Shown here: piece by piece, positions 3,170 through 8,511 of the stretch
Layout: the number at the start of each line of letters is the position of its first letter
Position numbering within the stretch: the stretch's first letter is position 1
Source: Cerasicoccus arenae
GTDB lineage: Bacteria; Verrucomicrobiota; Verrucomicrobiia; Opitutales; Cerasicoccaceae
Direction: 5' to 3'
Length of the DNA stretch: 64,000 bases
Assembly (NCBI RefSeq): GCF_014651635.1
Contig: NZ_BMXG01000012.1
Span: 62,001-126,000, forward strand
Translations under genes and position numbers: made by a program
The notes under the pieces: model-generated
Database searches by the model: none
What the model saw: only the letters and a program-made list of their open reading frames with translations
What the model was told of the DNA's origin: nothing

Positions 3170-4468
3170 ATGGGAAGGAAAATCCTCATAGTCGATGACG
3201 ACACTGATTTTAATCAACTGCTGACAGATATCTTCAGCCAGGCGAGCTATGACGTCGACTCCTGTGAAGAGCCTGAACATGCGGTAACTCAGTTTCAGAA
3301 TGAGAATTACGATTTAGTCGTTACGGACCAGAAAATGCCGGGCATGTCTGGCGAAGAACTCATCCGCACGCTCAAGAAGATCAAGCAGGACGTGCCGATT
3401 ATCATGGTTTCCGGCTATTTGGACAACGACACAATCCGCAGCCTCATTCGAGAGGGGGTGGGTGGCGTTTTCCTTAAACCGCTCAATGTGTTTTCGTTGC
3501 TCAAGCGAACGGCGACGCTCATTGAAGAGCGTGAGGCTGGAATGCGACGAGAATCCGGGCAGGAGGACGGTGATGACGACGATGATAACTTCCACCATAA
3601 CCTTCCGTTTAAGTTCGAAACCTTTCCGGCTAAGGATCGGCATTCACGCGAGTTTGCCCAAAAGCTTTACGGTCTGCGCGATTTTAAGACGAACCTTGTC
3701 ATGGTTGCTCCGCGTGGCACGGATTTGGAGGCGATCACCGATGACCTGAGCCATTTCGATTCTGGATGCAAAGACCTCTATCTGCTGCTTGATCGTTCCC
3801 GCATTGACCGGGAATCCATGATGAAGATCATTGTGCAGTCGACACAGAAAGGTTGGGAGCGCGTTACTTTTGTCATTGCTGGGGCCGAAACCATTACTCG
3901 CGAGCAGTATTCACTGATTATGCGAATCGGACGCAAGAAGGACCCCTTTGACACGATTCCCTTCCCGATGCGGTTTATTTTTTGTGTCAGCCGTGACTTA
4001 GATTTACTCTACGATGAGCGCGTGGTCGACGATGCCGTTTATATGTTTATGGGCACTACGGAGATCGCCGTGCCACAGCTTTCAGACGTGCCGGATGATA
4101 TTGGCGAACTGGGAAACCGTTATCTAGAAATAGAAGCCAAGGCGCACGGTTTGAGCAAAGTGCCCAAGCTAGAGCTAACCGCAAAGACTTATCTACGCGA
4201 ACAGAAGTGGGCAGGCAATGCCGCAGAACTTCACCGCTTCATGCGCATGGCAGTACACTTGGATAAAGCCACTCTGAGCATGGAAGACTTGGAGCGGGTC
4301 GAGCAAAAACTGTCTTCTGCGGTGGGTGGAGCTCGTAGCCTGCTACAAGGCTTGCAACTCTACCGCGATGAATACGTGAAGGCGGTGACGATTCTGCTGG
4401 GGGATCAGTCTGCCGCCAGTCATGCATTGAAGGTTGACGAGGAATTTATGGAGCGGATTCTTAGTTAA
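3170..4468 (+). CDS. Response regulator with degenerate NtrC-like AAA+ and Fis-like domains
   Basis: A 432-residue protein from the ATG at 3170; an in-frame GTG at 3149 would add seven residues. Residues 1-125 are a receiver domain with acidic pocket DDD near 9-11, phosphoacceptor Asp53 in VVTDQKMPG and the conserved lysine in FLKP. After an acidic linker (DDDDD) the rest follows the outline of an NtrC AAA+ module. VAPRGTD stands where the Walker A loop should be, then comes a PQLSDVPDDIGEL-like segment, a WAGNAAELHRF stretch matching the WPGNVREL lid, and a C-terminal helix pair resembling a decayed Fis domain. Walker A lysine, Walker B acid pair and GAFTGA are all absent, so sigma-54 activation is unlikely. 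It pairs with a similar gene at 5289 and lies upstream of a GspE-like ATPase. Function unknown. Confidence 0.75.
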   Translation: MGRKILIVDDDTDFNQLLTDIFSQASYDVDSCEEPEHAVTQFQNENYDLVVTDQKMPGMSGEELIRTLKKIKQDVPIIMVSGYLDNDTIRSLIREGVGGVFLKPLNVFSLLKRTATLIEEREAGMRRESGQEDGDDDDDNFHHNLPFKFETFPAKDRHSREFAQKLYGLRDFKTNLVMVAPRGTDLEAITDDLSHFDSGCKDLYLLLDRSRIDRESMMKIIVQSTQKGWERVTFVIAGAETITREQYSLIMRIGRKKDPFDTIPFPMRFIFCVSRDLDLLYDERVVDDAVYMFMGTTEIAVPQLSDVPDDIGELGNRYLEIEAKAHGLSKVPKLELTAKTYLREQKWAGNAAELHRFMRMAVHLDKATLSMEDLERVEQKLSSAVGGARSLLQGLQLYRDEYVKAVTILLGDQSAASHALKVDEEFMERILS

Positions 4469-4501
4469 CGCTAATTTTAGCTTATTTAATCGTTGTCGAT
4501 T

Positions 4502-5161
4502 ATGGAAAAACTGACGCTGGAACCTACCCTACACATTCGTTTTACGAATGATTTTACAGCGGTTAAAATAGATGGAGATCTCGACGATCCCAGCAGCTTT
4601 GGCCTCACACTGATGACTGCGTTACGTTCCCTGAACTCGGGGGCAGAAGGGTTATCATTGGGCGAGGTCAAAAGCATCCGAGGCCACGATTCAAGTGAAG
4701 GCTTTCAGCTTACTTTGGATGATGCTGGCCATAATTTTAAAAAGTATGAGCAGGTTACCCAATGGGCTGATTTTGATGGGACGACGGCTGATGGCGTATG
4801 CTATTATCCAGTGATTCCTGCAGCGGCAGATCTCACATCTTGGCTAGACCAACTGCCTAACGTTCGTTGGCGGGGCTTGCGTATTCAGGCTGATGACGAC
4901 TGGAAACATTATTTTAGGGAACAAGAAGCTGACGAATCCGTTATTTCCGCTTTTAGCCTGTCGTTTTTGCAATTGGATCTCTTGATTCGTTCGCTGAGTT
5001 TACCACGCCAGCAATTGCAGATAAATTTTGCTGAAAATACGCTCTGGATCGCCGTTAACGACGACAGTGATTTTCTTCTAGTGCTGAGTAGCTCAAACAT
5101 AAGTCATGGCACGCGCGCCACTTTGGAGCGCTGCCTGAGCTTTTTTACCTGGCCTTTGTAA
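4502..5161 (+). CDS. Unrecognised 219-residue protein between two pseudo-NtrC regulators
   Basis: I do not recognise this protein. The ATG at 4502 gives 219 residues; a TTG at 4493 would add three. It has no signal peptide and no membrane segment, so it is probably cytoplasmic. It is rich in Asp, Ser and Leu, with alternating hydrophobic stretches (HIRFTNDFTAVKIDGDL, LQINFAENTLWIAV, FLLVLSS) that suggest a mixed alpha/beta fold. It lies 33 bases after the first degenerate regulator and 127 bases before the second, on the same strand, so it is probably part of the same functional group. Remote-homology search or structure prediction is needed for any function. Confidence 0.7.
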   Translation: MEKLTLEPTLHIRFTNDFTAVKIDGDLDDPSSFGLTLMTALRSLNSGAEGLSLGEVKSIRGHDSSEGFQLTLDDAGHNFKKYEQVTQWADFDGTTADGVCYYPVIPAAADLTSWLDQLPNVRWRGLRIQADDDWKHYFREQEADESVISAFSLSFLQLDLLIRSLSLPRQQLQINFAENTLWIAVNDDSDFLLVLSSSNISHGTRATLERCLSFFTWPL

Positions 5162-5288
5162 GTGAATCTACGCACCTGCCGTAGGGTTGATGGCTGGGGT
5201 CATGGTAAACCATGCTTGAAAGCTCGTTTCCGATGCCTCATAAGCATGTATCACTTTGGCTCATTAAGCGCACATTAATTTAGTAACT

Positions 5289-6629
5289 ATGGCACAGCGA
5301 ATTCTCGTTCTTGATGACGAAGAAAACTACGCCGACATGCTACGTGCATTGTTGGAACAACATTCTTTTCTGGTAGACTCTGTGACGGACCCCGCCCGGG
5401 CGTTAGAGAAACTCCATGGCACTGGTTACGAATTGGTTATCTCTGATTTCAAAATGCCGGGCATGGATGGCGCGGATTTCCTAAGCAAATCTCGGGAAAT
5501 GAATCCCGACTTGCCAGTGATTCTGGTTTCCGGACTGATGAATACCCCAGACCTCGTCAAGGTTGCCAACATGGGTGTGACGCTGGTTCTGGAGAAGCCG
5601 ATCGACATCCAACTGTTCATTAATCACGTCAAACGCTTTGTCCAGCCAGCAACCAAAGATGAGTTTCGGGTGCACCGCCAAGGCAAGAGCGGAGAGGTCG
5701 CTGGTGCCTTGGCTTTTAAGCAAACTTACCCACGCACACTGCATTATTTGTGCGACCGTTCCCACGTCTTCCGTTATTTTTTGGAGCATGTTTGGGGCGC
5801 TGCGAATGAGCAGGATCATATATTTATTTCGGCTCCCCGTGGGAGTGAGGCCGATTTATTGTTACGCGAAGTTTCTCTATGGCGGAAATTTAGCGCCACC
5901 CGAATTCATTGGCTCGATCTTCGCCACCCGGATTGTGTCCGTATGAGTGCGGCTCTGAAGGAGAAAGCGGTGGACAGTAAAACCAGTGAGCTTGTTGGCG
6001 TCATTGGTTTCGCTGATTCATCATTGGCGGCGCAGGAGCAAGTGGTGGATTGTATTCGCGAATCCCCGGAGAATCTTGCCTTCCTTTATTTCATCGAGAG
6101 TGACCTGATTGACTCCGATACGCGTGTGATTGATCCGGAATTGCGTGAATTATTGGAGCAAAGTCTGTGTGTGATGCCCCCGTTGAACGCTCGTTTGGCA
6201 GACCTTGCTGCTTATGTGAAACGTTACTTGCCGCTGATCGCCGAGTCGCTCAAACGGCCGGGCCGATCGGAACTCGACCCCCAAGGAATTGCTTTGTTGC
6301 TTTCCTACACATGGCCTGGGAACTTTCGAGAACTGATTGATGTATTGCGCGTCGCTGTTGCTTTGCAGACTGAAGGTCCGGTAATGCAGCAAGATCTGGC
6401 GACTGCCCTGCAACGTGTTTCCAATCACAATTCTTCCTCTCCCCACGAATTGTTGCCATTAAGTGCTGCGATTCAGGAGCGGCAGCACTACATCGTCAGC
6501 AACGCAATGCGGGAGTCAGGGCAGGATATTGTGTCCACTCTTAACACGCTTGGCGTTGGCCCACAGGCGATCAATCCCGATACGGGCGCAGACAATCTGC
6601 CCCTGATCTATCCAGAACTGATTAACTGA
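5289..6629 (+). CDS. Second response regulator with degenerate NtrC-like AAA+ and Fis-like domains
   Basis: A 446-residue paralogue of the gene at 3170. The receiver domain (1-125) has the DDEE acidic pocket, phosphoacceptor Asp53 in [12 protein letters not shown] and lysine in LEKP. The following region keeps the NtrC AAA+ outline: SAPRGSEAD replaces Walker [10 protein letters not shown] replaces the Walker B/sensor strand, [19 protein letters not shown] matches the LPPLRERxEDI segment, and [18 protein letters not shown] is an almost canonical lid motif. A Fis-like helix pair ([12 protein letters not shown], then LGVGPQAI) follows, with a 20-residue tail. With no P-loop lysine, no Walker B acids and no GAFTGA, ATP hydrolysis and sigma-54 contact are not expected. 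It ends seven bases before the GspE-like gene, so the two are likely cotranscribed. Confidence 0.78.
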
Positions 6630-6636
6630 AATCGTT

Positions 6637-8511
6637 ATGCCTCTCGCACGTATCCAAGCATCAATTGTCCGTAATCTCTGCCAGTTTAACCGTATTACCA
6701 ACGAGCAGGCGGAGCACATCATCAATACCGATGCCGAACTTTCAGGAGAGGAGGTAGAGGCGCTGCTCGCTCAGGATTACGGCATTAGCGAATTTCAGCT
6801 GCTCGCCGCCAAGAGTAAGGCCTTCGGTATGGCACCGTTTAACGCGTTTCATTTCGAGCCTAATGATCGTACTTTCGAAAAGTTGGACAAAGAATTCTGC
6901 GAAGAGCATGTGGTTCTGCCAGTTGGTTTTGTAGGTAATACATTTGTGGTCGCGGTCCACAACCCCTTTGACCTGACCGTTCTCAATTTGGTTCATGAGC
7001 ATACTCGCCGCAAGGTGTCGCCACTACTGGGCATCAAGCGCGAAATCTTGGCAAAACTCAAGATTGGGGGCGACGAGCAGCCCGTTGTCGCGGAAGGTTT
7101 TGGTGATGTTGTTGACGCACTCGACATGGAGTACGACATCGACGAGGAAAAGCTAGAAGAAGGCGATGCCGAAGATTCCGCACCTATCATTCAATTAGCC
7201 AACCGGATCATTGAAGATGCCTATTATTCTGGTGGAAGTGACATACACATTGAGCCTTTTGAAAAAGACTGTCGCATTCGGGTACGCGTGGATGGTGTGT
7301 TGCAGGAAAAACTTTCCGTTTCGGCGAAGGTCTCGGGTGCCCTAATGGCGCGCCTTAAGATCATGAGCAATCTCGATATCGCGGAGAAGCGGTTGCCGCA
7401 AGATGGTCGTATTATTTTTAAGCATTTTACTCGAAAGCCGATTAACATCGATTTACGTGTATCCACTGCGCCGCTCAACCATGGCGAAGGCATTGTCATG
7501 CGTATTCTCGACAAATCTAAGTCGACGCTACCGTTGCCAGCATTGGGCTTTGAGCCGGAGAACCTTGAGCGCTATCGCGAATGCATTACCCGACCTTACG
7601 GGATGATTCTCCACTGCGGTCCCACCGGTTCAGGTAAATCGATGACGCTCTATTCGGCGCTCAATGAAATTAACGATCCAGGCATATGCATCCGCACGGC
7701 AGAGGACCCGATTGAGTACACTTTGCCTGGCCTCTGTCAGATGCAGATGCACCGCAAAATCGGGTTAACCTTCGCCACTGCGCTACGCGCCTTCTTGCGA
7801 CAAGATCCGGACGTCATTCTCGTCGGGGAAATTCGCGACTCGGAAACAGCGGGTATCGCTGTGGAAGCAGCACTTACTGGACACATGCTCTTCAGTACGT
7901 TGCACACCAATGATGCGCCGGGGACAGTTGCGCGTTTGACTGAAATGGGGGTCGAGCCGTTCATGATTTCAGCGTCGATCGTCGCGGTCTGTGCGCAGCG
8001 TCTGATGCGCCGTGTCTGTAAAAGCTGCCGTCAGTCTTACGAGCCTGAATCGCGCGAATTTGAAATTCTCCGCAAGGCAATTCAATTTGAAGGAGGCGGC
8101 ATCTTCCGCGCCAACCGCATTGGCTGTCCTGCCTGCTCGGGTAAGGGCTACAAGGGGCGAGTGGGCATTCACGAAATGATGACTACAAGCGAGGCACTCA
8201 TTGAAGGCATTAACCAAGAAATGGAATCCGCAGAACTTAAGAAAATTGCGATGTTCAGTGGTATGTCGACGCTGCACATGGATTCGATGAAGAAGGTTCG
8301 CTCTGGATTGACTACAATGGAGGAGGCGATTTCCACTATTCCACCAGACATGGAGGACCTTGAGGCTCTTGCTGAAGAATTCGAATTACAGGCCAAGCTC
8401 AAAACCCGAAAGGATAAGGAGCGGAAAAAGGAAATTGAGGAGCTTAAGGCGGAGTCGCTTGCGCTGGAGGCTGAGGAAGCAGAAGCACTCGAGGCAGCTA
8501 AAACGAAATAG
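6637..8511 (+). CDS. GspE/PilB-family secretion or pilus assembly ATPase
   Basis: A 624-residue AAA ATPase of the type II secretion / type IV pilus assembly family. An N-terminal GspE-N-like domain (about 1-150) is followed by the GSDIHIEP segment near 190-200, Walker A GPTGSGKS near 328, and the Asp-box/Walker B region [12 protein letters not shown] near 390. The four-cysteine zinc site (CKSC near 459, CPAC near 496) is typical of PilB/GspE rather than PilT. The family hydrolyses ATP at the inner-membrane platform to polymerise pilin subunits. Unusually, the last 70 or so residues form a charged Lys/Glu-rich helix, probably a coiled coil, beyond the normal family end. No pilC, pilT or pilin gene adjoins it; two prepilin-like genes occur at 35899-37225. 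It closes the operon before a strong terminator. Confidence 0.88.

Follow-up and report, generated by a model that had tools for sequence, protein, structure and literature searches.

Receiver proteins with a degenerate NtrC-type AAA+ core are encoded beside pilus motor genes in Opitutales

Results

Gene organization of the locus

A stretch of 64,000 nucleotides from the marine bacterium Cerasicoccus arenae (Verrucomicrobiota, Opitutales; genome size ~4.1 Mb), referred to here as the window, was analysed. The interval 3170-6629 holds three genes, RR1, MID and RR2, of which MID was absent from an earlier sequence-only reading. A gene for a motor ATPase (pilB) follows.

3170..4468, + strand: RR1; receiver in residues 1-120 (Asp53), linker, pseudo-AAA+ region in 149-380, remnant Fis-like tail
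4502..5161, + strand: MID; 219 aa, with a roadblock/LC7 (MglB-like) fold in residues 105-219 of the predicted model
5289..6629, + strand: RR2; receiver (Asp53), pseudo-AAA+ region in 146-380, degenerate tail
6637..8511, + strand: PilB/GspE-type motor ATPase; Walker A GPTGSGKS intact, MshEN-type N-terminal domain

RR1 starts at the ATG at 3170, and pilB begins 7 bases past the end of RR2. Between RR1, MID, RR2 and pilB no terminator-like sites were listed on the + strand, the scan being no richer than shuffled sequence. The 6637-8511 gene product was matched by Pfam T2SSE (E 5.2e-125) and by a PilB model with E 4.7e-170, yet under the equivalog cut-off. The same locus is found in Cerasicoccus maritimus and C. 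frondis, the nearest named relatives. The C-terminus of RR2 (window 6600-6626), just ahead of the pilB start, reads L(L/I)YPEL and is conserved in most orthologues; it may be a docking peptide.

RR1 and RR2 have the fold of sigma-54 activators but not their functional residues

NtrC-type activators require Walker A, the Walker B acids and GAFTGA, all three, to remodel sigma-54 polymerase. RR1 and RR2 had been described as a receiver, an AAA+-like core and a Fis-like region in that order, and the first two parts were borne out. The receiver domain was detected by Pfam in RR1 (E 5.5e-24) and RR2 (E 6.2e-21), and AAA_lid_14, the AAA+ lid, matched both. The lid motifs reported earlier were recovered as WAGNAAEL at RR1 347 and WPGNFREL at RR2 342. 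The Fis-like region proved to be a remnant: the tail of RR1 and RR2 aligns to the first Fis helices, and in the alignment the recognition helix (RRTLxRKL in canonical members) is missing from RR1, RR2 and a third paralogue, RRC. HTH_8 was detected by Pfam in none of 34 RR1 and 22 RR2 orthologues.

RR1 and RR2 are homologous over their full length (23% identity, E 1e-26; 99.9% in profile comparison). The AAA+ sigma-54 activator fold was assigned from a structure model for RR2 and from profile alignment for RR1. The RR1 profile aligned over its full length to NtrC1 (PDB 4l4u, E 4.4e-24), and the end-to-end alignment of the RR2 profile was with NtrX (PDB). When the AlphaFold model of RR2 (pLDDT 83) was compared with known structures, NtrX, NtrC1 and NtrC4 came out on top, followed by LuxO, VpsR and FleQ; the value against NtrX 5m7p was E 4.5e-18. 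The AAA+ fold is present in this model. Superpositions of the whole RR2 chain gave a large rmsd because the domain arrangement differs, and the structural claim therefore concerns the fold and not the arrangement.

To locate the functional motifs, canonical NtrC paralogues from the window's genome served as anchors of the alignment; they carry GETGTGKEL, LFLDE, GAFTGA or GSFTGA, and FREDLYFR. In RR1 and RR2 the sites for Walker A, Walker B, GAFTGA and the arginine finger (FRxDLYYR) are empty or replaced. The alignment confirmed the loss of the Walker B acids and GAFTGA that had been read from the letters, and it added the arginine-finger motif to what is gone. The receiver active site is intact. 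Asp53, named earlier as the phosphoacceptor of both proteins, is D in 33/34 RR1 and 22/22 RR2 orthologues, S81 and K103 are present in all, and the acidic pair is kept. Judged by these residues, the receivers are likely to be phosphorylatable. Descent of RR1 and RR2 from the sigma-54 activator family is clear, but they depart from it in the residues that define its function.

Loop variation and selection

RR1 orthologues were found in 35 of the 132 genomes of the order Opitutales, spread over 11 families; two further weak matches are omitted from this count. Walker A and GAFTGA occur in none of 34 RR1 and 28 RR2 orthologues, and a search for orthologues with intact GxxGxGK and GAFTGA returned none among RR1 and RR2. 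Proteins with GETGTGKEL and GAFTGA at two loci (L166 and L168) were placed by the tree among canonical NtrC paralogues and rejected as orthologues. The proposal that a receiver is retained on a core incapable of sigma-54 activation was supported in all orthologues found and by the RR2 model.

The sequence-only reading had also taken the Walker A loop to be replaced by APRG in both proteins and the shared APRG to mark an ancestral loss. Walker A is indeed always absent and APRG is present in both (RR1 180, RR2 182), but it is not a feature of the family. APRG is carried by 1/34 RR1, that of the window itself, and by 2/22 RR2, and the four loop letters are identical in just 2 of 748 RR1 x RR2 pairs. 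The usual RR1 loop is GExG, that is, the first half of Walker A with GK lost; in the congeners of the window it is TPRG. RR2 loops are variable, with the last Gly as the sole conserved position. APRG was ruled out as a conserved motif on these grounds, and its occurrence in both proteins is recent and coincidental.

The claim that the proteins are kept under selection was upheld, with dN/dS of 0.03-0.16 for the receiver and AAA parts. Within the genus the values were 0.060 (RR1) and 0.034 (RR2) for receivers and 0.065 (RR1) and 0.156 (RR2) for AAA parts, and 0.03-0.20 over every part of the two proteins, all of them rough because of near-saturation at synonymous positions. Across the taxonomic family of the window, conservation is by far the highest in the receivers, at identities of 0.80 (RR1) and 0.83 (RR2) versus 0.48 and 0.45 for the AAA parts. 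In one family RR2 is a stand-alone AAA-like protein of 233-235 aa without a receiver (L188 4918-5619, L189 4543-5250); RR1 there has an extra stand-alone receiver, so that the domains are split.

A class-wide search with RR1 was also carried out, and its best few matches (L210-L214, L221-L223) were inspected. Canonical NtrC of the window's genome score in the same range as the matches below about 160 bits, and such matches are therefore probably canonical NtrC.

A third paralogue follows pilC1

RRC lies directly downstream of pilC1 in 17 of the best 30 pilC1 loci, the other 13 being without RRC; the pilC upstream of it was confirmed by T2SSF. In several related families RRC consists of a receiver and an AAA+ domain with Walker A and a degenerate Walker B site, and in some families its P-loop is damaged (GTQK, GTGH). 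GAFTGA is absent from all RRC examined. HTH_8 scored 20.6 bits in one RRC protein, below the cut-off of 22 bits. The RRC of the window's genome and of close relatives has shrunk to 173-186 aa: the receiver and the same tail remain, and the AAA+ domain is deleted.

L215 3809-4330: RRC of the window's own genome; receiver and tail

When 14 canonical NtrC were included in a tree, all the degenerate proteins fell on one side of a branch with support 95/92. RR1 and RR2, with a few Opitutales relatives, form one clade (100/100), and RRC is the first branch within the degenerate clade, in a rooting that depends on the canonical set chosen. On this clade, loss of the ATPase core appears to be ancestral to RR1 and RR2. 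As read from the tree, the sigma-54 loop would have been lost before the ATPase residues and the AAA+ domain itself last (in RRC).

MID is predicted to have a roadblock fold

MID is located between RR1 and RR2 in the taxonomic family of the window only and is missing outside it. Its AF2 model (pLDDT 86, pTM 0.85) shows a roadblock/longin-type fold, and Foldseek paired it with MglB (probability 1.00, E 8e-4). Residues 105-219 gave a structural Z of 7.9 over 104 residues, a modest value (<8), with roadblock proteins in nearly all of the top rows. In the N-terminal half, strands and helix follow each other much as they do in the C-terminal half. The fold was assigned by model comparison, the sequence profiles having given nothing usable: MID had no Pfam match, and Robl_LC7 matched neither MID nor anything else in the genome. 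Matches to C-type lectins among PDB sequence profiles (E 0.04 or worse) were judged to be chance. MglA is the known motility partner of roadblock proteins. As a candidate partner of MID it was rejected, the sole match in the genome being of 21 bits, below the cut-off, and inside an 839-codon frame.

Association with pilus/secretion motor genes

The taxonomic family of the window (10 genomes) keeps the order RR1-MID-RR2-pilB, except that RR1-MID and RR2-pilB are on separate contigs in G006 and that a contig end cuts pilB in G009. Over the whole order and the window, 27 RR2 loci have a readable flank; RR2 precedes pilB in 19 of them, either immediately or separated from it by a single small MshEN-like gene, and is away from pilB in 8. 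The close PilB orthologue is present in 32/35 genomes with RR1 versus 19/97 without it (Fisher p 4e-14, inflated by kinship). At L166 (7453-8817) and L168 (7034-8398) a canonical NtrC gene is found directly after RR1, and RR2-pilB is elsewhere.

In most genera other than Cerasicoccus, the gene immediately preceding RR1 encodes a MshEN-like protein of ~170 aa, whose Cerasicoccus counterpart lies at a different place in the genome. The Pfam MshEN cut-off was reached by one of three small proteins tested. Small orphans of this kind (L034 3525-4064, L152 3422-3931, L227 4967-5497) share a conserved RSNRFLGSALxEKGLI and resemble the N-terminal (MshEN) part of PilB/GspE; they could conceivably have a c-di-GMP function in trans.

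Other pilus-type genes were noted in the window's genome. A second PilB-like ATPase (L201 3768-6362, contig C31) has 864 aa, is 58% identical to the PilB of the window and carries an N-terminal extension that looks GAF-like by eye; long PilB proteins related to it are found across the order. A separate pil cluster on contig C1 (L216 7002-14287) encodes two PilB-like ATPases, one PilT-like ATPase and pilC2. The 402-aa protein after pilC2 (L216 13079-14287) has, by eye, a histidine kinase and a receiver, and is a possible partner kinase.

Discussion

The RR1/RR2 family adjoins pilus/secretion motor genes and therefore probably switches a machine and not genes. In the explanation that we favour, with a probability of about 0.55, RR1 and RR2 belong to a pseudo-NtrC family of the Opitutales whose members have become adaptors of a type IV pilus/type II-like machine under the control of their receivers. 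By sequence and, for RR2, by the model, an NtrC-type sigma-54 activator has lost its sigma-54 loop, ATPase residues and DNA-recognition helix, while the phosphorylatable receiver was retained, as was the AAA+ fold as a scaffold. The genes of RR1 and RR2 are tied to pilB and that of RRC to pilC, that is, to the cytoplasmic motor and the platform of the pilus machine. Phosphorylation of the receiver would then most probably shift pairing or docking and so license, inhibit or place the PilB/PilC1 machine, with the roadblock-fold MID as a putative further adaptor in Cerasicoccus and relatives. A bolder version, in which the PilB hexamer is the docking site of RR1 and RR2 and PilC1 that of RRC, phosphorylation directly gates pilus extension or secretion, and the AAA+ domain passed from ATPase to scaffold to deletion in one paralogue, is tentative and somewhat doubtful. 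Adjacency to pilB and pilC could reflect shared expression only. The canonical NtrC after RR1 at L166 and L168 fits a link to transcription and counts against the adaptor reading, as do the 8 RR2 loci away from pilB, the 13 pilC1 loci without RRC, the missing MID outside the family and the failure to find MglA.

Alternatively, RR1 and RR2 might control pil genes from DNA as sigma-70 regulators without ATP hydrolysis, like the GAFTGA-less NtrC of Rhodobacter and Caulobacter or VpsR. Action of GAFTGA-less NtrC at sigma-70 promoters is documented (PMC10274813), the RR2 model has VpsR and FleQ among its structural matches, and the neighbouring pil genes are possible targets. We consider this unlikely, since the recognition helix is missing in RR1, RR2 and RRC and HTH_8 was undetected in RR1 and RR2; furthermore, the examples on record work at promoters, and the R. 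capsulatus NtrC needs ATP binding, whereas RR1 and RR2 are without the Walker A lysine. The sequence-only reading had left a choice between scaffolds and anti-activators. The latter would be pseudo-AAA+ subunits that co-assemble with canonical NtrC and thereby poison the hexamer or modulate it, for which the AAA+ fold kept in the RR2 model, the canonical sigma-54 activators encoded in the same genome and the canonical NtrC directly after RR1 in two genomes can be cited. The elements of the NtrC ring interface (arginine-finger region, nucleotide site) are gone, however, RRC has dropped the whole AAA+ domain, and synteny in the great majority of loci is with pilB or pilC. Anti-activation is accordingly judged improbable, and a scaffold seems the better fit because the genes follow pilB/pilC rather than sigma-54 activators.

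Of all parts the receiver is the best conserved, and it can occur by itself, as in RRC (130-186 aa) and in the stand-alone receivers of one family. This would suit phosphate sinks or plain two-component adaptors, with the AAA+ part as passive packing and no special relation to pili. Purifying selection on the AAA+ parts (dN/dS 0.065 and 0.156) and recurrence of the pilB/pilC association in many families speak against such a role, for which we see little chance. Decay of former NtrC activators into pseudogenes would explain the vanished catalytic motifs, but it is contradicted by the low dN/dS in every part and by reading frames that stay open and a gene order that persists throughout the family's 10 genomes, and is very improbable indeed.

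The adaptor reading can be set against known systems. No report on the RR1/RR2 system was found in a search of the literature, mostly outside subscription journals, on Verrucomicrobia/Opitutales pilus regulators and pseudo-NtrC. With NtrC/NtrX-type enhancer-binding proteins of group 1 (NtrX 5m7p, NtrC1 4l4u, NtrC4 3dzd), RR1 and RR2 have in common the receiver-AAA+ architecture and fold, the lid/sensor II motif and the phosphoacceptor Asp. In contrast to these proteins, RR1 and RR2 are without Walker A, Walker B acids, GAFTGA, arginine finger and DNA-recognition helix. The NtrC proteins of Rhodobacter and Caulobacter lack GAFTGA and act at sigma-70 promoters (PMC10274813). Like RR1 and RR2, these proteins and VpsR combine an NtrC architecture without the sigma-54 loop with a retained receiver; RR1 and RR2 have in addition lost the Walker A lysine and the recognition helix, and the AAA+ domain is deleted in one paralogue. 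The documented GAFTGA-less NtrC still act at promoters, whereas here a pilus-linked clade across a bacterial order has shed its sigma-54 loop, ATPase residues and DNA helix and, last of all, the AAA+ domain, and the receiver and the link to motor genes persist. If its members act on the motor, this would be a clean, traceable conversion of a transcription factor into a machine regulator, and a candidate control layer for pili in Verrucomicrobiota.

In Myxococcus, the pseudo-receiver FrzS and a small-GTPase pathway bring PilB to the type IV pilus machine, and the polarity module includes the roadblock protein MglB (PMC11580455). The FrzS/SgmX/MglA-MglB network and the RR1/RR2-MID locus both combine a receiver-type protein linked to PilB with a roadblock-type protein. 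They differ in that FrzS is a receiver with a coiled coil and without phosphorylation residues, and in that no MglA was found in the window's genome, MID being a roadblock match at the level of fold only. The closest parallels in ancestry are the GAFTGA-less NtrC, which regulate from promoters, and the closest functional parallel is the Myxococcus pilus network.
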